Of a stretch of 25,253 bases of DNA, positions 2,289 through 19,856 are shown in pieces (within the stretch, counting starts at the first letter, position 1; each line of letters starts with the position of its first letter). The position numbers were made by a program, and so were the translations under genes. Location: the IMG/VR virus record IMGVR_UViG_3300031864_000012, positions 1 through 25,253 of that record. One strand, 5' to 3'. The stretch is from a virus. The notes below the pieces were generated by a model. The model saw only the letters and a program-made list of their open reading frames with translations. It made no database searches and was not told the DNA's origin.

Positions 2289-3731
2289 ATGAAAATACCG
2301 ATAAATATAAATTACAGCAAAAGAAGGAGAGTTTTAAGCATTGGGCTTAAAGCAAGGGGTTGGTCTTCTCCAGACGTTGGGGATGAAAGCATCTGGGGAG
2401 GAAGCAATACATGGGGGGAAGGTGTCGAAGAACGATTAAGCGACCCGTCCTCGCAGTTGGAATACAATAAAAGCTGGGTCTATATATGTGTCCAGTACAA
2501 TGCCAGGCAGATATCTAGGCAGAAGCTAAGGCTGTATGTTAAAAAACAGAAGGGTTCTCCCGGATACAAAGTTACGCCGACAAGAAAGGTTGAAAAAGAA
2601 CAGCTCAAATTCCTGTATGAAAATCCGGGTCTTAGGCTTTGGTTGGGCAAGGATGTGGAAATAGAAGAGGTGCTTTTACATCCATTCTTAACGATGATGG
2701 AAAGCGTCAATCCTTTGCTGAATCAGGCTGATTTATGGATGCTTACAGAGAGCTTCATGGGCATAACAGGCAATAGTTACTGGTGGATCAGGAAGAACAA
2801 GCTGGGAGTGCCGTGGCAACTCTGGGTTATGGAAACTCAGTACATGAAGCCGGCGATAGGGAAGACTTTTGATGATTACATTCAAGGATTTGTTTATAGG
2901 GTTGGGACGAATGAAGTGCCTTTTGATGTTGAGGAAATAGTCCACCACAAGTACCCGAACCTGAGAAGCAGAGCGGTAGGGATGAGTCCGATAGAAGGGT
3001 TGGCGGATCCGGTGACGGTCAACGCCCAGATATACAAGTATGAACACGCGATATTCAAGAACCAGGCAAGGCCGGATGCAGTCCTTGAATCAGACGAGGA
3101 CTTGACGACTACGCAGTATAATCGTGTTAAGAAGAATTGGCAAAAGACATACGGAGGGGTAGATAAAACAGGGCAGGTAGCTTTACTGGAAGGCGGACTG
3201 AAGTACAAACCGATATCTATAAGACCGAGGGACCTGAATCATCTTGAGGGGAGAAAGCTGACCCGGGAAGAGATCGCAGACGGTCTTGGCGTACCCATGC
3301 CTTTATTGTCACCCGACAAGTCTAACCTGGCAAACGCAACGGTAGCTTACAGGCAGTATATGAGAGATACCATTGACCCGAAACTAAAGCTTTACGAGCA
3401 GAAAATGAATGAACAGCTTTTGAAACTTTATGATGATGGCAGCATTTTTTGTGCTTTTGATAATTGTATACCCGAGGACAGGGACTTCCAGCTCAAGGAA
3501 ATGGAGTCCAGGCTCAAGACGGCATACAGTTCTGTCAATCAGGAGAGAGCAAAGAGAGGGGAAGACGAGGTTGACTGGGGGGATGTTCCTATACTTCCAA
3601 TGAACATGCTTCCATTTGGCAGTGCGCCGGCTATCCCCCCAAAGAAAGAAAGCAAAGGAATAAAGATAGCCGATAATTTCGAGGAGTTGGCTGACGGTGT
3701 TGCGAAGGCAATAATGAAGAAAATAAAATGA
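2289..3731 (+). CDS. phage portal protein
   Basis: 480 residues, of the HK97/SPP1-like portal type. The chain has the expected features: an N-terminal 'vyicvqynA' segment (SWVYICVQYNARQIS), a central region with WIRKNKLGVPWQLWVM, the conserved IVHHKYPNLRSRAVGMSPIEGL, and a C-terminal half with LTREEIADGLGVPMPLL and the ANATVAYRQYMRDTIDPKL helix. The portal forms the dodecameric ring through which DNA enters and leaves the head. The frame is open further upstream, but ATG 2289 was chosen because GGAGGG at 2273-2278 sits ten bases before it and because it starts just after the terminase stop. The gene ends in an ATGA overlap with the next gene. Confidence 0.95.
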   Translation: MKIPININYSKRRRVLSIGLKARGWSSPDVGDESIWGGSNTWGEGVEERLSDPSSQLEYNKSWVYICVQYNARQISRQKLRLYVKKQKGSPGYKVTPTRKVEKEQLKFLYENPGLRLWLGKDVEIEEVLLHPFLTMMESVNPLLNQADLWMLTESFMGITGNSYWWIRKNKLGVPWQLWVMETQYMKPAIGKTFDDYIQGFVYRVGTNEVPFDVEEIVHHKYPNLRSRAVGMSPIEGLADPVTVNAQIYKYEHAIFKNQARPDAVLESDEDLTTTQYNRVKKNWQKTYGGVDKTGQVALLEGGLKYKPISIRPRDLNHLEGRKLTREEIADGLGVPMPLLSPDKSNLANATVAYRQYMRDTIDPKLKLYEQKMNEQLLKLYDDGSIFCAFDNCIPEDRDFQLKEMESRLKTAYSSVNQERAKRGEDEVDWGDVPILPMNMLPFGSAPAIPPKKESKGIKIADNFEELADGVAKAIMKKIK

Positions 3732-4648
3732 GAGACGTCAACCTGAAAGAGAAATTCTGCAATTGTGTTGCCGATAAGTTGCTGGAGTATATCGTTAAGG
3801 AAAAAATAATAGCCATGATTGCAAAAGCGATCTACGGTAAGGCAATAGAAAAAAGTAAAGAGATTTTAAAGAGAAATAGGCCACAGGAGTTTTTGAGACG
3901 CAATGAGAAGTTTATAGTGAAATACGAACGGAAGCTCAGAAAGAGATATAGCGAAATGGAAAAAGAGGTTCTTGGAAAAATTAAATATTTGTATGAAATT
4001 TACAATAAAAGCAGTAAAGATGGGTTCGACGTTAACCAATGGCTGTTTAACAGGCAGAAGTGGCGTGGAACATTGACGGCAGATGGCAAATTATTGACAG
4101 CTACTCCGCTTGAATCGGGAGGCCAATATGCCTTGGATGACCTTGGCCTTGAGATAGCATTTGACAAGATGGACCCGAGAGTGATTGAATGGATAGCGAC
4201 AAACTCGAAAAACGCCGCCTGGTCAATAACAGACACACAGCATGAAAAGCTGAGAACAAGCCTAATGGAAGGGATAGCTGATGGCGAAAGCATCCCAAAG
4301 ATCAGAGCCCGGGTGGCAGAGATATTCGCAGCATCGAGAGCCAGAGCTACGCTGATAGCGAGAACGGAAACCCTGAAGGCATCGAACAGAGGCGGTTGGA
4401 TAGGTATGATGCAGAGTGGAGTGGTTGAGGGGAAGCAGTGGTTAAGTACGATGGACGCACGTTGCTGTCCGGAATGCGCAGAAATGGATGGAGCGACCAT
4501 GCCTTTAGAAGAGCCATTTTTTAAGCTGGGCGAAGAGCATACTTTTGAAACAGGTAAAACCATGCCTTTTGATTATGAGGAAATCCAGCATTGTCCATTA
4601 CACCCAGACTGCCGATGCACACTTTTGGCTATTTTAAAGGAAGTTTAA
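3728..4648 (+). CDS. MuF-type phage head morphogenesis protein
   Basis: 306 residues. The C-terminal half carries the phage Mu F / SPP1 gp7 signature: IARTETLKASNRGG, then a W..D.rcCpeCaemDG segment (DARCCPECAEMDG) and the closing HPDCRC. The N-terminal 130 residues are basic and probably helical. MuF proteins bind the portal and are carried in small copy number into the head; some act in DNA ejection, and some carry C-terminal toxin domains, which this one does not. Start ATG 3728 overlaps the portal stop (ATGA), so translation is probably coupled. The spacing CxxC...HxDCRC suggests a possible metal site. Confidence 0.92.
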   Translation: MRDVNLKEKFCNCVADKLLEYIVKEKIIAMIAKAIYGKAIEKSKEILKRNRPQEFLRRNEKFIVKYERKLRKRYSEMEKEVLGKIKYLYEIYNKSSKDGFDVNQWLFNRQKWRGTLTADGKLLTATPLESGGQYALDDLGLEIAFDKMDPRVIEWIATNSKNAAWSITDTQHEKLRTSLMEGIADGESIPKIRARVAEIFAASRARATLIARTETLKASNRGGWIGMMQSGVVEGKQWLSTMDARCCPECAEMDGATMPLEEPFFKLGEEHTFETGKTMPFDYEEIQHCPLHPDCRCTLLAILKEV

Positions 4649-4694: not shown

Positions 4695-6200
4695 ATGGCA
4701 AAGGAAATATTGACACAAAGACTAAAGCTTTCTGAGATAAAAGTTTCTTGGAACGATTTAAGGGAAGAGGCGATAAAAGATATATTGAAAAGTCCCAAAG
4801 TGCCTTACCGCAGCGCCGGGGATATTCCTTTTATCCGGAAGTTTTATGTTCAGGACAAGAAGGTGACGAAGGGCTTGCCGGAAGGGCAGGTACGGCATTA
4901 CATATCGACAATGGCTTTGGACAGAGACCATGAGATAATGATGCCGAAAGGAGCTAAGCTCAAGAACTACAAGAAGAATCCGATGGTTTTGTGGTCTCAT
5001 AACCCTTCGGATCCTGATAATATTATAGGCAAAAACCTCGAAATTGAACATGATGAGAAAGGCTTGGTGGCTCTGACGCAGTTCATTCTGACGAGCCCAA
5101 AGGCGGCAAGCATTTATAACTTGTTCAAAGAAGATTGGCTGAGGATGTGGTCGGTTGGATTCATACCGCTGAAAGGTCATAAACCAGAAAAGGGGGACGG
5201 AAAGCTTTCAATTTCCATAGGTGAGCCCCCGAAGTCAGGTGAGGTGAGGTATGTCCATGACGTCTGGGAATTGTTGGAATACTCGGCCTGTGCTGTCCCA
5301 TCGAATCCAGAAGCGGCGACTCTGGAAGTGGCTAAAGGTTACGACTTATCAGACGATCTGATTAAGGAGATGGGATTGAATCTTGAAAACATAAACAGGT
5401 TGAAGGCCAAGTTAGAAGGAGGGAAAGAGGATGGCAAAAAAATTATCGACTTGGGGGCTTTGAGTAAAGATGATAAGAAAAAAGAAGAACTCAAAGAGGA
5501 AAAGAAGGATGAGGATAAAACACAGGCGGAAGTTAAAGGGGCAATCCCTTACGCAGATCATGGAGCAGCAGATGAGGGAACAGCTTGGGATGGACCGAGA
5601 GAGATAAGGGAAGCAGATGTTGATGCGCTGAAAATAATCTGCGCATGGTATGATTCAGGAAATGCAGACAAAAAATCAAGCTATAAGTTGCCACATCACA
5701 GAGCAGGAGACAAGAAGGCTGTATGGCGCGGGGTTTCGGCAGCTATGGGGGCATTGCTTGGGGCTCGTGGCGGAGTAGTAATCCCGGGTGGAGACAGGAA
5801 AAGCGTCTATGATCATCTGAAATCGCATTATAAACATTGGGACAAGGAGCCTCCTGACTTTAAAGATTACAGCGATGAGGAATTGACGGAAATATTTCCT
5901 GAGGAAAAGAAAGCAAAATATGAATGTGAATGTATTAAATGTGGTTATAAGATGGGAAGTGACGAACATTGTGCTGATATAAAATGCCCGAAATGCGGAG
6001 GAGAAATGAGAAGGGTAGAGCGTCCGGGGCCGGGTAGGAGTGATGAAGAGGAAGCAAGAAAGCAATTAGGGCTTACTGTTGAGGAATATGAAAATCTTAA
6101 TTGGGATAGCGTAGAGGGCTTAGACCCGGAAGAGTTCAAAAAACTTTATGAAGAAGGTGAGAAAATTAGTGATGAGGAAGTTGGATATTATGAGCAATAA
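4695..6200 (+). CDS. prohead protease (HK97 type) with C-terminal accessory domains
   Basis: 501 residues. The N-terminal ~210 residues are an HK97-like S78/U35 serine protease: H102 in WSHNPSD, S153 in MWSVGFIP, and the LLEYSACAVPSNPEA segment at ~193-207. It would trim the capsid protein delta domain and self-digest. After a charged linker (~250-280) comes a second domain at ~285-380 with SYKLPHH and LLGARGGVVIPGGDRKSVYDHL, a module known from phage protease C-termini and separate small phage proteins. A zinc ribbon follows (C413, C416, C431, C434; ECIKCGYKM...CPKCGGEM). AGGAGG at 4683-4688 supports the start. The 3' end overlaps the end of the antisense HNH gene by 35 bases, so the last residues may have been altered by that insertion. 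Confidence 0.92.
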   Translation: MAKEILTQRLKLSEIKVSWNDLREEAIKDILKSPKVPYRSAGDIPFIRKFYVQDKKVTKGLPEGQVRHYISTMALDRDHEIMMPKGAKLKNYKKNPMVLWSHNPSDPDNIIGKNLEIEHDEKGLVALTQFILTSPKAASIYNLFKEDWLRMWSVGFIPLKGHKPEKGDGKLSISIGEPPKSGEVRYVHDVWELLEYSACAVPSNPEAATLEVAKGYDLSDDLIKEMGLNLENINRLKAKLEGGKEDGKKIIDLGALSKDDKKKEELKEEKKDEDKTQAEVKGAIPYADHGAADEGTAWDGPREIREADVDALKIICAWYDSGNADKKSSYKLPHHRAGDKKAVWRGVSAAMGALLGARGGVVIPGGDRKSVYDHLKSHYKHWDKEPPDFKDYSDEELTEIFPEEKKAKYECECIKCGYKMGSDEHCADIKCPKCGGEMRRVERPGPGRSDEEEARKQLGLTVEEYENLNWDSVEGLDPEEFKKLYEEGEKISDEEVGYYEQ

Positions 6201-6720
6201 GAATAGATTCAAGTTTAAAAATATAATTTTTCATTTTTCTAATTGTATAGTGTTCGCTGTTAGGATGAAGTTCAAGATTTTCAAGAGAATTATTAGTTTT
6301 ATTCCCATCTTTATGATGAACATGTTCCCAAGTTTCAAGAGGACGATCAAGAGATTTAGACATTACAAAACGATGTTCATAGATTTCGCCTCTTTTGTCA
6401 GCCATTGGATGATGCTTCCCAAGAAATATTTTTATATATCCATGATTAGTAGGTTTTCGTTGAAGAGGACGATTTCTATTCTTTTCTTCCCATGTAAGAA
6501 AACGATAGCAATTCTTACAAACACCAGTAAAAATGCCAGTTTTCAATCTTTTCAAAACTATGTCTTTCCGCCATGCACGAATATTGCCACATTTACCACA
6601 AGATATATTAATCATAAGCCTTTTTGCCCCATTTGGATCAACTTTTTGAAATTCGTTTTCCCAATGAATTATCGATTTAGATTTAAGAATTTGATTTTTC
6701 AAAATTGTTTTCTTTTTCAT
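6166..6720 (-). CDS. HNH homing-type endonuclease (free-standing)
   Basis: 184 residues on the strand opposite to every other gene. Residues 41-71 hold two CxxC pairs (C41/C44, C68/C71), a probable zinc finger. The HNH_3-type nuclease lies at ~112-151: EHRFVM, LDRPL, EHVHHKDGNKTNN and LENLEL, with H135/H136 and the Asn pair as expected metal and catalytic residues. Such proteins are usually mobile endonucleases that spread by cutting alleles lacking them. The gene sits between the protease and the next head gene, is AT-richer than its neighbours (about 35% GC over the sample 6481-6540) and has its own promoter, all of which fits a separate insertion. No Shine-Dalgarno site is possible (see the promoter entry). 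Confidence 0.9.
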   Translation of the reverse strand: MKKKTILKNQILKSKSIIHWENEFQKVDPNGAKRLMINISCGKCGNIRAWRKDIVLKRLKTGIFTGVCKNCYRFLTWEEKNRNRPLQRKPTNHGYIKIFLGKHHPMADKRGEIYEHRFVMSKSLDRPLETWEHVHHKDGNKTNNSLENLELHPNSEHYTIRKMKNYIFKLESILIAHNIQLPHH

Positions 6721-10984: not shown

Positions 10985-11006
10985 GTCTATGCATAGGAGG
11001 CTAGAG

Positions 11007-11459
11007 ATGAAAAAAACCATTCTGATTTTTTTGATTGCGTTCATAGTTCTGTTTTTACCGGCGGTTGCGAACCAGACTTATTATATGGAGTTCCTGACGG
11101 CTGCCATTGACGTGAATAACAACATTATAGCTGTTCATGGGGGAGCTTTCACAAGCATAGAATATGATATTTCACGCTATCCGGCAGTGGGCGGGCTAAC
11201 AATATGGTTTACGCCAGCTGCCCCTGCGGCAGTGAAGATCGAGTTTGAATGGTCTGTTTCCGCAGATGGGACAAACTGGTCAACTGATGACGAAACGTTT
11301 GAAATAGCAGTGAACACGGATGAGCGAGCAGTAAATGGCGTTGTTAGAGTCAACGTGCCATTCCCATTCTGGGGAGCTAAAAAAATAAGGCTTGAGAGAG
11401 TTGTCGTAGGAAACGGAGCAGGGAACTGCACTGCGATAAACGCAGGGATTTCATTTTAA
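11007..11459 (+). CDS. small secreted protein with signal peptide, unknown function
   Basis: 150 residues. The start (MKK, then a hydrophobic stretch ILIFLIAFIVLFLPAV, then ANQ) is a typical Sec signal peptide with likely cleavage after AVA (about residue 21). The mature part is short and beta-rich (IEFEWSVSADGTNW, VRVNVPFPFWGAKKIRLERVVVG), possibly a beta-sandwich. ATG 11007 was chosen because AGGAGG at 10995-11000 precedes it by six bases and the signal peptide begins there, though the frame is open to 10968. A secreted product is unexpected in a head-tail operon; the next gene has the same property. Confidence 0.7.
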   Translation: MKKTILIFLIAFIVLFLPAVANQTYYMEFLTAAIDVNNNIIAVHGGAFTSIEYDISRYPAVGGLTIWFTPAAPAAVKIEFEWSVSADGTNWSTDDETFEIAVNTDERAVNGVVRVNVPFPFWGAKKIRLERVVVGNGAGNCTAINAGISF

Positions 11460-11471
11460 GGAGGTAGCATG

Positions 11472-12332
11472 ATGAAGAAAGCACTAGGTATATTTTTATT
11501 GTGTGTAACAATCCTTTTGGCCGGTCTAATTATTGCAGATGCCCAGTCGTTCAGGCCAGTTCTATTCAAGCTGAGTGCGATTAAGGATGTCAGTAGCGTG
11601 GATGCAACAGATGGATATTACCTGAAATATGATGGGACTGCAGGGACATGGGGACCGGCTGAGCTGGTAGTACCGCCTTCAACACCGGTCTTCACTGACA
11701 ATTTTGCAGACGCGGCTATTTATTGGGCTTGGAAAACGGATGAGACGGATGCGAATAAAACGATAGTAGAGGCAGGTGGTTTATTAACTATTGAAGTAAA
11801 GAATAATGTAATAGCTGTATTGAATGATTCGGACAATATGGCTCCTAAAATCTTTACTGGTGTTCCTGGATATCCCTGTGAAGTTATTACAAAGCTAAAT
11901 GATTATACTGTAAATGATAAAACTGCCGCAGGATTGTTTATTGCCATGAACCCAATAACTAATACTGCTCAGGGATTTTATGGAATTTGTAGGCTTAAAT
12001 CAACCGTTAATGGGAGAGACGGGATATCAATGATAGACATAGCTCATATAAGCGGAGGGCTTGCAGATGCAGCTGTAGCGACGCTTCCAATATGGTTAAA
12101 GATTAGAATAAAAGCACATGCTTATGCTGCAATAGATATTTTATTTTATTACAGTGAAGACGGCATTAATTACACTTTACTCTATACGTTAACTCCGTGG
12201 GCTTGGATTAATACAAAAGACCCCGCAGTCATTATTGGTTTAATTGCAAATAATACCGCCATAACTAGTAACATCGCAGCCCCGTTTGAGTTTATTACAA
12301 TAACACAGGATTCGGGGCCAGGGTGTCCATGA
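11472..12332 (+). CDS. secreted beta-sandwich (LamG-like) protein with signal peptide
   Basis: 286 residues. The N-terminus has Lys-Lys, a hydrophobic core (LGIFLLCVTILLAGLI) and a cleavage site of type ADA-Q near residue 24. No lipobox Cys is present. From ~residue 70 the sequence reads like a concanavalin-type domain: FTDNFADAAIYWAWKTDE, AGGLLTIEVK, ITKLNDY, AGLFIAMN, WLKIRIKAHA, ILFYYSEDGINYTLLYTLTP. It resembles the protein at 10194 in type, not clearly in sequence. Of two adjacent ATGs, the second (11472) has the better spacing (seven bases) from AAGGAGG at 11458-11464. It may coat the host surface or act on glycans; the role is inferred from the signal peptide and the glycosyltransferases that follow. 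Confidence 0.7.
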   Translation: MKKALGIFLLCVTILLAGLIIADAQSFRPVLFKLSAIKDVSSVDATDGYYLKYDGTAGTWGPAELVVPPSTPVFTDNFADAAIYWAWKTDETDANKTIVEAGGLLTIEVKNNVIAVLNDSDNMAPKIFTGVPGYPCEVITKLNDYTVNDKTAAGLFIAMNPITNTAQGFYGICRLKSTVNGRDGISMIDIAHISGGLADAAVATLPIWLKIRIKAHAYAAIDILFYYSEDGINYTLLYTLTPWAWINTKDPAVIIGLIANNTAITSNIAAPFEFITITQDSGPGCP

Positions 12333-12382
12333 TCGGCACAAAGAACGCTTTTATTGGAGTTAAGGGAAAAAGGTCTGGATGA
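12329..12382 (+). CDS. possible 17-residue micro-ORF
   Basis: MIGTKNAFIGVKGKRSG. Its start overlaps the previous stop (ATGA), and its own stop overlaps the start of the next small ORF (again ATGA). The chance of such a chain without selection is not high, but there is no ribosome binding site and no recognisable product. It may only serve to pass ribosomes along, or be a remnant of a larger gene. Confidence 0.3.
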   Translation: MIGTKNAFIGVKGKRSG

Positions 12383-12456: not shown

Positions 12457-13401
12457 ATGAAGGTTCTAATCGTAACTGACAAATATGCGATGTCAAATGA
12501 CATATCAAACGGTTACCGGGTCGGCAAGGCTTTCGGGTCCTTGGGTCATGATGTTAGTTTTGTGAGTCCTGAAATGGCATCGACAAAGGCGGGAGACGCT
12601 GATTTCATTCTAGGGTTTAATTCACTTCTGTACAGTTACCGGATGTTCTTGAATGTATGGATATCGAAAGCGAAGGCCCCGAAGGCAAAATTTGCTATAT
12701 GGAACTTTGATTCTTGTAGTGATATTGACGGAATGAATAAAATGCGCAACAGAAACATCAGGAAAATAATCCCATATATAGACCTGCTGATTACAACGGA
12801 TCACGACTTCCCTTGGGAAAACCATATTGATAATTATCTGCATTTAAGCCAGGGGGTCGATCCAGAAGATTTCAATTATACACTCGGCAACAATGAAGAC
12901 AGGCCGTATGATGTGATTTATACTGGAGGGATATATGACAGAGAGCCGGAAAGAATACAGGCTTTAGAGAAAATCGGACAAAAGTTCAAAAGTATTATTT
13001 ATACTTCAAGCAATGGAGACAAACTTCCTGAGCTGAAAAAATTGACTTTGAAGGCTAGTGTTTACGGGAAAGATTTTTTCGATGCGTACCAGCAAGCAAA
13101 AATCGCTTTCGTGCCCAGGCCGCCCTCTGAAATCAAGGAAAACTACTGGAGTAATCGGATTTATTTGGCAGCCGCTACGGGGACTTGTTGCCTTGTTGAA
13201 TATGTGAAAGGTATAGAGAAAGAGTTTAATTCTTTTGAAGAAGTGTTGTATTCATTTGGTAGCAACGATATTGTCGAAAAGATAAAATTTCTGTTGTCAG
13301 ATCCAGGACTGAGGTTAGAGCTTGGCAGAAATGCAAGGCAGAGGGTTCTTAATAATTATAAATATTCAAACAGAGTTAAAAAAATACTGGAGATCTTATG
13401 A
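12457..13401 (+). CDS. GT-B type glycosyltransferase (CgeB/YkvP-like)
   Basis: 314 residues. The N-terminal half begins MKVLIVTDKY and has the Rossmann-like pattern of GT-B enzymes. The C-terminal half (~150-314) fits the Glyco_trans_1_2/CgeB family (PF13524): VIYTGGIYDREPERI, YGKDFFDAYQQAKIAFVP, NRIYLAAATGTCCLVEY and the closing helical NARQRVLNNYKY. It would transfer a sugar from a nucleotide donor in the cytoplasm; donor and acceptor are unknown. The stop forms an ATGA overlap with the next gene, a second glycosyltransferase, followed by a methyltransferase, so the three probably build one glycan. Their place inside the structural operon suggests that virion proteins are the acceptor, though host surface glycans are an alternative. 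Confidence 0.85.
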   Translation: MKVLIVTDKYAMSNDISNGYRVGKAFGSLGHDVSFVSPEMASTKAGDADFILGFNSLLYSYRMFLNVWISKAKAPKAKFAIWNFDSCSDIDGMNKMRNRNIRKIIPYIDLLITTDHDFPWENHIDNYLHLSQGVDPEDFNYTLGNNEDRPYDVIYTGGIYDREPERIQALEKIGQKFKSIIYTSSNGDKLPELKKLTLKASVYGKDFFDAYQQAKIAFVPRPPSEIKENYWSNRIYLAAATGTCCLVEYVKGIEKEFNSFEEVLYSFGSNDIVEKIKFLLSDPGLRLELGRNARQRVLNNYKYSNRVKKILEIL

Positions 13402-14078
13402 AAATATCGCTGTTTATTCCTGTCTGGAAGCGGTTCAAATACCTTAAAAATGTGCTACAGGCATGGTCTCCGCAGGTTGATGACATAACAGTCTGGGATG
13501 ATTCAGGAGAAGAAAGAAAATATTCCAGCAAAGTCACAGTGATAAGAGCCTCCAAAAGGCAAGGCAGTCATATCAAATTCAAAACAGCCCAGATTCTTAA
13601 GAACGACATGGTTCTGATAAGCGATGACGACATCATGCCGGGGCAAAATCTGGTTGCGGAACTCATGGCCGGATTCAATAAAATTCCATTGGATGACGAA
13701 CTGAAAGTAATAACCATATTCGGGAGAAAGCTGTCTAAACACGGCTACCAAAGCTATCCGCTGCAAAGGGCAGATCTGATTACAGAAATTCAGGAAGTTG
13801 ATTGGGCAGGGCGACTGCTGTTTGGACATCGGAAGAATTTTATGATTGATATAACCAAGTGCCCCAACTATTTGCTGGACGATCTGTTCTGGTCATTTGA
13901 GCTTCGCAGGCAAAGACCAAAAGCAAAGATATTTGTTATTCCTACAATAGAATGGGGGAATACCCTTGAAGCTAATGATAAAAATTCGCTTTGCAATATT
14001 CCCGGGTACTGGATAATGAGAAACAATTTTGTAAGAATGAATTACGAGAAATATTTTAATGAAGGGCACGAAAAATGA
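13398..14078 (+). CDS. GT-A type (family 2-like) glycosyltransferase
   Basis: 226 residues. It starts with the GT-A beta strand MKISLFIPVWKR, has a nucleotide-binding DD pair (TVWDDSG, ~32-37) and a metal-binding DxD-type motif at residues 76-78 (LISDDDIMPG). It is shorter than classical family 2 enzymes, with a compact C-terminal part (LLDDLFWSFEL, IEWGNTLEANDK). It would be a cytosolic nucleotide-sugar dependent transferase. It is joined to both neighbours by ATGA overlaps, which implies co-translation with the GT-B enzyme before it and the FkbM methyltransferase after it. Confidence 0.82.
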   Translation: MKISLFIPVWKRFKYLKNVLQAWSPQVDDITVWDDSGEERKYSSKVTVIRASKRQGSHIKFKTAQILKNDMVLISDDDIMPGQNLVAELMAGFNKIPLDDELKVITIFGRKLSKHGYQSYPLQRADLITEIQEVDWAGRLLFGHRKNFMIDITKCPNYLLDDLFWSFELRRQRPKAKIFVIPTIEWGNTLEANDKNSLCNIPGYWIMRNNFVRMNYEKYFNEGHEK

Positions 14079-14827
14079 AGGCACGAGTATTGAACCATAT
14101 TATGTATTTAGACCCTGAAGATCAGCTTATATCCAAAAATTTGTTTAATAATAAGGGTCATGAGCTTAACGAAACCGCCCTTGTATTAAAGACGCTAAAA
14201 AAGGGTGATGTGGCCATAGACATAGGAGCGCATATTGGTTATTTCACTTTGATAATGGCAAGGTGTGTCGGGCGGCAGGGAAAGACATACGCTTTTGAGC
14301 CATCGCCTAGAAATTTTAAATTATTGCAAAAAAACGTTGATTACAATGGTTATAAGAATGCGACTCTCATCCCCAAAGCCGTCTCTGATAGATCGGAGGA
14401 AGCAACGTTATATCTGAATCCTGGGAACACGGGAAACAACATGCTTTTTAAAAGAACTAATAATGTTCAAGGAATTCGGATTGAGACCATATCGCTTGAC
14501 AATTATTTCTCTGACATTGATTTCAATATTGATTTCATTAAGATTGACGTAGAGGGTTCAGAGCCTTTGGTCATAAACGGGATGAAGAAAATACTTGAGG
14601 AGTTTGCATACATAAATCTAATGATAGAGTTTTTCCCGCAATTGCTCAGGGTTTCAGGATTTGACCCCCGGGCTTTCCTGGTCACGCTGAGAGAGCTTGG
14701 CTTTAAACTGTATTTTATAGAAAAAGGTAAGCTGAAAGCATTTAATCAAATCGCAAGCAGGTATATTAATCACCTAACTTGGCACAAAAACATTTATTGT
14801 GAGAGCATGATGAGGTATGAAAAATGA
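14075..14827 (+). CDS. FkbM-family SAM-dependent methyltransferase
   Basis: 250 residues. SAM-binding motif I is at 47-58 (AIDIGAHIGYFT), followed by the acidic FEPSP (74-78), the NvdyNGYKNATLIPKAVSD segment and IKIDVEGSEP at ~159-168. These match the Methyltransf_21 (FkbM) family, whose members O-methylate sugars or related hydroxyls. Next to two glycosyltransferases it most likely caps a glycan by methylation. Starts in an ATGA overlap and ends in another one with the small ORF at 14824. Confidence 0.92.
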   Translation: MKARVLNHIMYLDPEDQLISKNLFNNKGHELNETALVLKTLKKGDVAIDIGAHIGYFTLIMARCVGRQGKTYAFEPSPRNFKLLQKNVDYNGYKNATLIPKAVSDRSEEATLYLNPGNTGNNMLFKRTNNVQGIRIETISLDNYFSDIDFNIDFIKIDVEGSEPLVINGMKKILEEFAYINLMIEFFPQLLRVSGFDPRAFLVTLRELGFKLYFIEKGKLKAFNQIASRYINHLTWHKNIYCESMMRYEK

Positions 14828-16639: not shown

Positions 16640-17058
16640 AAATTAACGGATTTAAAGACAGTGAATACGCTAGAGAACCTAGGACTGTCCTTAAAAGATA
16701 CCTTGAAGAATGGGAGAAGAGAGACTGGGCTGGAATGGTTGAAGACACGCAAAAATCTTGGGTGTTGGCAATGCCAGATCCAGAAGAGATGCTGAAGGTC
16801 ATCTTTTCATATAAGCCAATTGAGGCTACCTTGATAAGGGAAGCGATGTTGAGCAACGTAGCTTATGCCTGTATATTAAACATGCAATATCTGGTGGCTA
16901 GAGGGGTTGTGGCAGACGTCCAGTTTGACGCGAGAGTTATCTGTGAGATTGATCAGCTGATGCCGTCTCCTGATGGAGATTGGGGAGTGAACCCCATCAG
17001 CTTGACCCCGACAATGGGGCTTGGATATAAAAATGATAAGGCCGAAAATCGTTGTTAA
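16636..17058 (+). CDS. neck-region protein, possibly NTF2-like
   Basis: 140 residues. I do not recognise it with certainty. The pattern LKRYLEEWEKRDWAGMVEDTQKSWV at the start, then YKPIEATLIREAMLSNVAYACILNMQYLV, a strand VRVICEID-like segment and DWGVNPISLTP at the end, would suit an NTF2-like alpha+beta cone fold. Many phages have one uncharacterised gene at this place between head closure and gp10-like genes. Starts in an ATGA overlap, and its end overlaps the next gene by 26 bases. Confidence 0.55.
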   Translation: MKINGFKDSEYAREPRTVLKRYLEEWEKRDWAGMVEDTQKSWVLAMPDPEEMLKVIFSYKPIEATLIREAMLSNVAYACILNMQYLVARGVVADVQFDARVICEIDQLMPSPDGDWGVNPISLTPTMGLGYKNDKAENRC

Positions 17059-18508
17059 GCCTGGTAAGGTATTTCTTACAAATTGTAAGTTATTGCCGGT
17101 CAAGGTGAGAGAAGCAGTCAAAAAAGCGACGCTGATGACTGCCTATCAGATTCATAACGACGCCAAAATTTTGTGTGTTCATCCACGAACGAAAGTTTTG
17201 ACTAATGATGGCTGGAAGCCAATTAAAGACATATCTACAGGTGAATTAATTGTTACAGAATCAGGAAAAATGAAGCCAGTAGAACAAATCGTAAAAAGTA
17301 AGCCTAAAGAAATTATCAGGCTTTATATAAACGCCATAAATAATGGTTTAACGCAAATAAAAGGCACATTTTCGTCTATTTCAGCAAGCCCAGAACATAT
17401 AATAAAAACAAGTCTGGGTTGGAAAAAATTCGGTGATATTATTGAGGGCGAAAAAATATATTTTCTTGCTTCAAAATGTAAAGAATGTGGTAAATTAAAG
17501 CCTTTTTTTAGTGTTTTTTGTTCTCAATCTTGTGGCGGAAAATGGAAATATAAACACGGAGAAGGAGAAAAGGGCTTGAAAATAGGACACGTTAAAGCAA
17601 AAGAATTTGCCCAAAAAAGAGACAGTGAATTAATTATAAAGAAAGGGAAAGAATGGAGAGAGAATAATCCAGAAAAAGTAAAAAAATATCATGCAAGACA
17701 AGGTAGAACGCTTGCTGAATTTTATAAGAAATATCCTGAGAAACATCCGAATGCTGTTTGTGCGAAAAATCATTTCTTTACAAAACTAGAGAGGAAGATC
17801 AAAAAATTATTACAAGAATTAAATATTGATTATATCCATCAATTTAAAGTTTGCAAATATTGGGCAGATTTTTCTTTGCCAAACATGAAGATTTTATTGG
17901 AATGCGATGGCGAGCACTGGCATCGAGATAAAAATAAAGAGGATAAAAGAGATAAAGAAATAAAAAAATTAAAACCAGATTATCGATTAATCCATTTAAG
18001 TGAGGAAGAGATTAATAATATAACGATGACTGGTTTATCTCAATACTTATCATGTGGTTTAGGCGATATTAGACTTATTGAGTTGAAGGTCAAGAAGATT
18101 AAAAGAATAAAAACCCCAAAATATTGTCCTCATTTTATCGATTTAGTAATTAATGGAGGTAAGGGAACGTTTATCGCGAATGGATTTTTAGTCCATAATT
18201 GTCCGGTCGATACGGGCAGGCTGAGAGCATCGATTTCCGTAAACTGGACAGGCAGTGGTATGTCGTATGGCAAGGTTACAGGGAAAACATCGGCAAAGGC
18301 CGGAAGGAAACCAAGCTCTGGCTCAGATGGAGTCGGGCAGCCCCCGAAGGAAATGGGTGGTTTTTACGCTTCTGTGGGTACTAATGTGGAGTATGCAGAG
18401 GATGTCGAGAATTATACATCTCCTTATCTGTGGCCCGCATTTGCTATGAACAGAGAGAAATACAAGGCGGCTTTGGTGATCGCGTTGGGAGCGGCTATAA
18501 AATTATGA
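17033..18508 (+). CDS. HK97 gp10-like neck/tail protein, interrupted by an intein
   Basis: The frame codes for 491 residues. N-extein (47 residues, ending HNDAKIL) and C-extein (102 residues, beginning CPVDTGRLRASISV) join to a 149-residue protein of normal size for the HK97-gp10/putative tail-component family, whose hallmark is 'AK...PVDTGrLr.SI'. In many phages this protein sits between head closure and tail terminator, as here. The intein lies directly before the most conserved motif. ATG 17033 was preferred to TTG 17021 because neither has a clear ribosome binding site; the gene overlaps its upstream neighbour and is probably coupled. The 3' end overlaps the next start (ATGA). Confidence 0.88.
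   Translation: MIRPKIVVKPGKVFLTNCKLLPVKVREAVKKATLMTAYQIHNDAKILCVHPRTKVLTNDGWKPIKDISTGELIVTESGKMKPVEQIVKSKPKEIIRLYINAINNGLTQIKGTFSSISASPEHIIKTSLGWKKFGDIIEGEKIYFLASKCKECGKLKPFFSVFCSQSCGGKWKYKHGEGEKGLKIGHVKAKEFAQKRDSELIIKKGKEWRENNPEKVKKYHARQGRTLAEFYKKYPEKHPNAVCAKNHFFTKLERKIKKLLQELNIDYIHQFKVCKYWADFSLPNMKILLECDGEHWHRDKNKEDKRDKEIKKLKPDYRLIHLSEEEINNITMTGLSQYLSCGLGDIRLIELKVKKIKRIKTPKYCPHFIDLVINGGKGTFIANGFLVHNCPVDTGRLRASISVNWTGSGMSYGKVTGKTSAKAGRKPSSGSDGVGQPPKEMGGFYASVGTNVEYAEDVENYTSPYLWPAFAMNREKYKAALVIALGAAIKL
17174..18199 (+). mobile_element. intein with Vsr/DUF559-like homing endonuclease
   Basis: 342 residues in frame. Splicing block A starts with Cys1 (CVHPRTKVLTNDGW). Block B is SASPEH (His75). 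Blocks F and G are GTFIANGFLVHN, ending His341-Asn342, followed by Cys+1 of the host protein, all that class 1 splicing needs. Between them are a zinc finger (C102, C105, C116, C120) and a PD-(D/E)xK-like nuclease of the Vsr/DUF559 kind: E205 (KLERKIKKLL), D232 (YWADFSLP), E243 and H248/H250 (LLECDGEHWH). Vsr-like homing endonucleases such as I-Bth0305I are known; LAGLIDADG or HNH types are the rule in inteins. The DNA is AT-rich (about 28% GC over the sample 17581-17640), unlike its flanks, which suggests recent arrival. Confidence 0.92.
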
Positions 18509-18909
18509 GCGACAACACAAGCTATCCAATTGAAGCCTTGCAGACAACTTTGCATACGCTTCTAATCGGTATTACAGGAGGATTATACGATGAGGTCCCG
18601 GAAGGCGCAGGCCTACCGTATTCGACTTTTGGCGACATGGTTGATGAGCCTATGGAAGCCCGGGGAGTTAAGGGCAGGATGGTTGTTGTGCCGATTCATG
18701 TCTACAGCAAGGATTCAGGTGGCAGGTTTCAGGCTGCCGGTATAATGAAAGAGATAGTGGAACTGGTGACAGCAGATGCCTTAACGATAGTTGGTTGGCA
18801 GGATTGTGGAAAAGTATATAAGGCCGGAAAGATAGAGAGGATGAAAAAGGATAGCGGATACAGCTATCACGGGATATTGACTTTTTTAATAACGGTGTGC
18901 AAAAAATGA
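18505..18909 (+). CDS. tail terminator / tail completion-like protein
   Basis: 134 residues. Position (after gp10-like, before tail tube), size and pattern (N-terminal helix PIEALQTTLHTLL, then YSTFGDMVDEPMEARGVKGRMVVVPIHVYSK, a helix, and a closing strand SYHGILTFLITV) fit the DUF3168/HK97 gp10-lambda U group that caps the tail tube. The frame is open from 18430, but ATG 18505 overlaps the previous stop (ATGA), the linking style used throughout this operon. Ends in another ATGA overlap with a glycosyltransferase gene. Confidence 0.7.
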   Translation: MSDNTSYPIEALQTTLHTLLIGITGGLYDEVPEGAGLPYSTFGDMVDEPMEARGVKGRMVVVPIHVYSKDSGGRFQAAGIMKEIVELVTADALTIVGWQDCGKVYKAGKIERMKKDSGYSYHGILTFLITVCKK

Positions 18910-19856
18910 GACTAGATGACGTGGCGGTAGTGGTCACTACTTTTATGAGGGAGAACGACTGCATGAAATGTTTATCTAGCATAAGGAAATTCTACCCAGA
19001 TATAAAGGTGCTTGTGGCAGATAATGGAAGGCATAAGGACGAGCGGTTTATTAATTTTCTGGACAGGATGAATATTGACTATGTAATTCTTCCTTTTGAT
19101 AGCGGGGTAAGCAAGACCAGAAACGTTGCATTGGACAACTTAAAGGATTTCCCCTATATTCTATTATTAGAGGACGACATGGAACTCACTGAGGAATCGG
19201 AAATCGAGAAATTCAAGGCTGTTCTTGAGGCGGAGCCAGGACTCGGGATGATAGCTGGGGCGATTGATCTAGATAGCGGAGCCAGGGCACTTTGGGCACA
19301 GCAATTGGAAATCAATAGGAAAGACAAAATGCTTTTCTCGTATCCGATAGTGAATCCAGAATGGATTGTATCGAATGGCGTGAGATGGCATTATGCAGAT
19401 CAGGCCAGTAATTTTGTCTTGTTGAGAAACAATCAAGACATAAGATGGGACAGCGATTTGAAGTCCGGAGGAGAGCATATAGATTTTGCAATTCACATAA
19501 AGCTTGATACAGCTTGGAGATGCAGCGTAACTGATGAGGTTATTTGCCTTCATCATGCCGGAGAAAAAACACCTGGCTATCTGAGACGCAGGCACAGAGG
19601 CGACACGTGGCCAAAGATAAGGAAAAAGAGAGGGTTGTTATTCTGGGTTGAAAACAGCAGAAAAGCAATCTGGGATTACAAAAATGCGAGAGGAATATTT
19701 TATCCTGAATATATGTATAATCTGATGAAGACCATAAACGAATCTAACGGTAAAAAACTTGCAAAGAATAAGGATTTTTTAAGAAAAATAAACAGGGGTG
19801 AAACCTTAGAGGTTAATTTAAAGCACCCCGATTTTAAGGAGGCTCAAAATGGCTGA
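18906..19856 (+). CDS. family 2 (GT-A) glycosyltransferase inside the tail operon
   Basis: 316 residues. Typical GT-A features: AVVVTTFMRENDCMKCLSSI (7-26), VADN (37-40), GVSKTRNVAL (67-76) and the metal-binding EDDM (89-92). The central part holds WIVSNGVRWHYADQASNFVL and SGGEHIDFAIHIK, which suits the acceptor site with a catalytic acidic residue, then CLHHAG. No membrane segment is seen, so it acts in the cytosol. It lies between tail terminator and tail tube genes, joined by ATGA before and an eight-base overlap after, away from the other sugar genes. It may glycosylate the neighbouring tail proteins; that is inference only. ATG 18906 was preferred to GTG 18897. Confidence 0.88.
   Translation: MRLDDVAVVVTTFMRENDCMKCLSSIRKFYPDIKVLVADNGRHKDERFINFLDRMNIDYVILPFDSGVSKTRNVALDNLKDFPYILLLEDDMELTEESEIEKFKAVLEAEPGLGMIAGAIDLDSGARALWAQQLEINRKDKMLFSYPIVNPEWIVSNGVRWHYADQASNFVLLRNNQDIRWDSDLKSGGEHIDFAIHIKLDTAWRCSVTDEVICLHHAGEKTPGYLRRRHRGDTWPKIRKKRGLLFWVENSRKAIWDYKNARGIFYPEYMYNLMKTINESNGKKLAKNKDFLRKINRGETLEVNLKHPDFKEAQNG

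Follow-up and report, generated by a model that had tools for sequence, protein, structure and literature searches.

To our knowledge, introns and split-intein loci have so far been the main sources of described EDxHD nucleases. Vsr-like endonuclease genes reportedly occur between split-intein halves in the "fractured genes" that Dassa and colleagues are said to have described in 2009. These loci combine a Vsr-like nuclease with phage inteins, as does the locus analysed here, which lies in a 25,253-nucleotide stretch of viral DNA (IMG/VR record IMGVR_UViG_3300031864_000012, hereafter the window). However, the nuclease of the fractured genes is said to be free-standing and their host genes to belong to DNA metabolism, whereas in the window the nuclease is fused in frame and the host gene is a virion assembly gene.

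EDxHD enzymes are an established homing endonuclease family, with I-Bth0305I as its founder (PMC3943268). The nuclease domain of the window intein agrees with that of I-Bth0305I in sequence, profile and fold comparisons. I-Bth0305I comes from a group I intron (PDB 3r3p, "Mobile intron protein"), whereas the window nuclease lies inside a continuous intein and, unlike I-Bth0305I as compared here, is preceded by a Cys4 finger. Nucleases of phrog_559, which carry a VSR signature, are found in TerL group I introns (PMC11878797); the finger-linker-nuclease unit of the window intein matches this PHROG (7e-12), whose nucleases are intron-borne rather than intein-borne. Mycobacteriophage terminase and replication inteins contain nested homing nucleases, and both splicing and endonuclease activity have been shown for them (PMC5050341). 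They follow an intein and homing logic like that considered here, in other host genes, and the text of that paper does not mention Vsr. In a cryoconite phage, a minor head gene has been reported to contain an intein bearing a 0.8-kb homing endonuclease (PMC7468147); this host gene is of the type found in most of the family described below, and not a tail completion gene. No continuous intein with a Vsr, DUF559 or EDxHD nuclease was described in the literature that we searched, which covered few subscription papers, so this is weak evidence of novelty.

The window encodes, on the plus strand at 17033..18508, a precursor of 491 amino acids plus stop that combines a gp10-type tail completion protein with an intein. 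Alignment with 80 inteinless homologues, in which the junction reads AKxL|C, places the 47-residue N-extein, ending in NDAKIL, at 17033..17173. The same homologues and the reading frame place the C-extein, which begins with Cys+1 (CPVDTGRLRASI...) and runs to the stop, at 18200..18508. Between them, Pfam, profile, fold and family-alignment evidence delimits an intein of 342 amino acids at 17174..18199 (residues 48-389 of the precursor), an in-frame, stop-free stretch of 342 codons inserted between KIL and CPVDTG. The boundaries proposed in the initial annotation proved exact to the base. Positions 17033-18508 form a single open frame, unlike a split intein or fractured gene, in which the halves lie on separate open reading frames.

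The joined extein scores 28.1 bits (4e-6) against Pfam HK97-gp10_like, above the cut-off of 21.4, whereas the interrupted extein reaches 14.4 bits and falls below it. A PHROG search matched the joined extein to phrog_5, "tail completion or Neck1" (5e-11), and the next gene in the window is a tail terminator (phrog_176). By these matches the host gene is that of a tail completion protein of the HK97 gp10/lambda gpZ type, and the intein interrupts it directly before the conserved PVDTG motif of the gp10 family, as had been proposed. The accompanying description of the product as a neck protein needs correction. In phage 80alpha, gp51, equated by the authors with HK97 gp10, lambda gpZ and SPP1 gp16.1, is present as one copy inside the neck rather than as a ring of its wall; its long N-terminal helix is followed by an extended loop, which caps the DNA end, and the protein contacts the tape measure protein (PMC11661146). 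The gp10 type stands, but the product is better described as a tail completion protein than as part of the neck wall. By analogy with the 80alpha structure, we infer that the intein site should lie past the expected N-terminal helical region of gp10.

Sites without the insert are common. A scan of virus-contig DNA for the joined motif AKxLCPVDTG returned at least 120 stretches, and among the loci examined at least 80 carry the motif in uninterrupted open reading frames of about 89-206 codons. Two loci (L009 and L010) have a colinear, inteinless gp10 homologue that is 44% identical. When a profile was built from the 80 inteinless homologues, the joined window extein scored 74 bits against it, whereas the interrupted form aligns in two pieces (11 and 41 bits) that break exactly at LC|PVDTG. 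Because the motif loci are uninterrupted and the profile splits at this point, the insert is no conserved domain. The initial annotation had suggested a search for such homologues, and had pointed to the same insertion recurring as a conserved structural domain as the finding that would speak against an intein; the homologues lack the insert, and the intein reading survived. A reading of the insert as a permanent structural domain of its host protein would agree with a frame that is open throughout, but we find this explanation scarcely credible in view of the inteinless homologues, the complete Hint fold with invariant splicing residues, and the presence of the same type of insert in unrelated minor head genes.

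The N-terminal half of the Hint domain (residues 1-98, 17174..17467) contains Cys1 (17174-17176) and the block B His75 (17396-17398), and matches the gp41-1 fold. The C-terminal half (residues 298-342, 18065..18199) ends in FLVHN, with the terminal His-Asn (H341-N342) at 18194-18199 and Cys+1 directly after it, at 18200. All of the splicing residues named in the initial annotation are therefore present, and C1, H75, H341 and N342 are invariant in a 33-row alignment of the intein and its relatives. In Pfam, the precursor matches Intein_splicing with 1.3e-7, although its 32 bits are slightly under the cut-off of 35.8, and the NCBIfam model of the C-terminal splicing region (intein_Cterm) is matched above its cut-off. 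An AlphaFold2 model built from the 33-row alignment has a mean pLDDT of 83, with values near 90 in the Hint halves and most of the nuclease and less certainty in the finger-linker region. Foldseek searches with this model retrieved Hint matches, including the gp41-1 intein (7e-7) and many more inteins, and the Hint and I-Bth0305I folds were matched within one chain. Since profile search, fold search and family alignment agree, the identity of the element as an intein is beyond doubt despite the weak single-sequence Hint matches. It is very probably a functional class-1 intein, and splicing is predicted; the activity expected in the initial annotation is thus likely. The block B Thr is replaced by Ser in the window intein and by Asn in a same-site relative (L015), so that splicing kinetics could differ.

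Three elements lie between the Hint halves, all on the plus strand. A zinc-finger-like CxxC...CxxxC motif (C102/C105/C116/C120, 17477..17533) is followed by a helical linker (residues 125-200, 17546..17773; helices predicted at 118-199, with low confidence in part) and by a Vsr-like nuclease (residues 201-293, 17774..18052) with E206, D232, E243, D245 and H250. Pfam matches to the precursor include DUF559 (2.3e-4) and Vsr (0.0045). Among solved structures the closest by sequence is the I-Bth0305I catalytic domain (3r3p, 8e-5), which is also matched by profile search (4e-7) and by fold (3r3p_A in Foldseek; TMt 0.77, rmsd 2.5, E 3.2e-4). The unit of finger, linker and Vsr domain aligns with phrog_9529 nucleases as well as with those of phrog_559. 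In the family alignment the EDxHD residues E206, D232, D245 and H250 are invariant, and D252 is kept in 28 of 33 rows. All four finger cysteines are kept in 32 of the 33, with C105, C116 and C120 missing in L062 alone. As judged from sequence and modelled fold, the domain is of the EDxHD/Vsr type that the initial annotation had recognised together with the finger, and cleavage is predicted. The finger is a candidate zinc-binding site, and the linker might form an extended DNA-binding region.

A second virus contig, IMGVR_UViG_3300020171_000259 (L015), carries a 338-amino-acid intein at the identical codon boundary. The two inteins are 50% identical, the exteins only 30-34%, and a translated comparison of the contigs found similarity only at the intein region and at an HNH gene. 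Intein identity in excess of extein identity, at an identical site in dissimilar phages, is a mark of a mobile intein. These are the only two distinct gp10-site inteins recovered from the virus contigs: searches for others with Ser, Thr or Cys at +1 found none besides the window population and L015. One candidate, L012, was a chance pattern match outside any gp10 gene.

We propose with high confidence that the locus holds a class-1 intein with a nested homing endonuclease, for which both splicing and homing are predicted. The 491-residue precursor would be translated, and the Hint domain, by means of Cys1, the block B His, the terminal His-Asn and Cys+1, would excise itself and join KIL to CPVDTG, giving a tail completion protein of 149 amino acids. 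With the 342-residue insert still separating the N-terminal helix from the loop region, the unspliced precursor would probably be unable to enter the neck, and splicing could gate particle formation, as it could for other phage inteins placed in virion assembly genes. The unit of Cys4 finger, linker and EDxHD/Vsr nuclease would act on co-infecting phages whose gp10 gene lacks the intein, cutting that gene near the site; the element would spread when the break is repaired from the copy that holds it. Self-excision, binding of zinc by the finger, the place of the cut and homing are all predictions.

Alternatively, the nuclease could be inactive, a relic within an intein that splices and persists by vertical descent. 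The intein is present in all five contigs of the window's phage population (the window and four others), and the four others differ by at most five SNPs in 12 kb, with none inside the intein. An intein-minus allele, which would be a direct sign of homing, was not found among these five contigs. Such fixation would suit a relic, as would the existence of related head-gene inteins in which no nuclease is recognisable by reading, such as that of Gordonia phage Lennon. We nevertheless judge this unlikely, because E206, D232, E243, D245, W249 and H250 are invariant in the 33 relatives and because, between the window and L015, the nuclease is as conserved as the N-terminal Hint half (identity 0.49 in both), with codon position 3 varying most and position 2 least.

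The predicted homing intein is one of many. The window intein, used as query against virus contigs, retrieved an identically organised intein of 390 amino acids that interrupts a head morphogenesis gene (L020), and a search of virus contigs with a three-sequence alignment returned 80 loci. From these, 31 non-redundant complete inteins (L020 included) were extracted, which with the window and L015 make 33. At least 33 distinct continuous inteins thus share the order of Hint, CxxC...CxxxC finger, linker, EDxHD nuclease and Hint. The junctions place most of them in MuF/gp7-type minor head proteins, at HPx^CRC or close variants. Three (L048, L054 and L062) sit at the second Cys of a CxC motif and four (L045, L052, L059 and L060) at an upstream DM^CD-type site; gp10 accounts for two more (window and L015), and a few sites occur once each. 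Six representative non-gp10 joined exteins were identified by PHROG search as head morphogenesis or minor head proteins. In the window's own minor head gene (3728-4648) the HPDCRC site is uninterrupted. Because the combination forms a widespread family in phage assembly genes, its description as rare in inteins needs correction. The set supplies a fused EDxHD arrangement and new candidate splicing scaffolds (334-430 amino acids). It also adds new predicted site-specific nucleases, for which the sequences reveal the natural targets: empty gp10 or MuF genes.

The family sites coincide with cysteine motifs (CRC, CxC and CPVDTG) in assembly proteins. This would be expected of conditional inteins whose splicing, responsive to redox state or metal through the Cys4 finger, Cys1 and Cys+1, times virion assembly. 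We consider such regulation very improbable, since inteins commonly require a cysteine at +1 and homing commonly targets conserved motifs. For the mobile inteins themselves, the balance seems even on whether continuous inteins with a Cys4 finger and EDxHD/Vsr nuclease constitute a widespread, unrecognised lineage that specialises on virion assembly genes and enters at cysteine motifs. If they do, the lineage would show how free-standing EDxHD nucleases become permanent parts of inteins, perhaps in more than one capture.

Besides the residues named above, T10, G13, W83, C102 and G246 are invariant in all 33 rows. Four pairs have measurable dN/dS (L052-L060, L027-L031, L020-L049 and L048-L077), and their values of 0.12-0.31 show purifying selection; dS is saturated in two more relative pairs and between the window and L015. 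The window intein has a G+C content of 31%, whereas the flanking extein has 47% and the window as a whole 43%, and the intein lies under its locus in G+C in all 32 relatives. Two site types each form a clade of their own in the intein tree: the gp10 pair, on a long branch (100/100), and the DM^CD-type group (100/99). Inteins at HPx^CRC and CxC sites are mixed. A tree of Vsr domains that included 20 free-standing nucleases did not unite the intein nucleases in one clade (p-AU 0.035), a result obtained from few columns with long branches. This tree is poorly resolved, and a single nuclease capture for all inteins is neither shown nor safely excluded. Many free-standing Vsr/EDxHD nucleases occur in virus contigs (L070-L095); in several of them NUMOD-like repeats or Cys fingers precede the nuclease domain. 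Such genes are possible donors of the intein nuclease.

Searches of 50,697 annotated phage records for full-length relatives of the window intein and three of its relatives gave partial matches only, and searches of genome contigs gave one weak nuclease match. A match in Prevotella Lak phage covers the nuclease side only. Corynebacterium phage phi673 (L227 2181-4691) and Vibrio phage 103E44.1 (L233 1654-4242) were set aside as relatives, since by reading each has a helicase intein without a recognisable Vsr domain; the displayed annotation of both helicase genes leaves the inteins unmarked. In Gordonia phage Lennon (L234 1628-4738), an intein ending HN^CRC lies within a MuF-like capsid gene whose annotation shows a single head morphogenesis protein. 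Eight more Gordonia phage records match as well, and the Gordonia phages represent cultured material. An intein fragment at a contig end (L101 2758-3489) shares the Cys finger and lies in another small gene, at a different site (DMK^C); this gene reads like a gp10-type TGxLxxSI protein and had no match in the PHROG search.

Elsewhere in the window, a free-standing HNH endonuclease gene is encoded on the minus strand at 6166-6720 (phrog_20891, 2e-17). It resembles the HNH gene of L015 (5086-5739; tblastx 47% over 66 amino acids), so the two phages share this gene and the intein and little else that is detectable. At about 10989-12379, contig G001 of the same population has a different segment of about 620 bases between near-identical flanks, and this region is a variable cassette between structural genes. 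By reading, glycosyltransferase-like genes and an FkbM-type methyltransferase-like gene lie among the structural genes at 12457-14827 and 18897-19856, and in L009 a glycosyltransferase-like gene is likewise found downstream of gp10.
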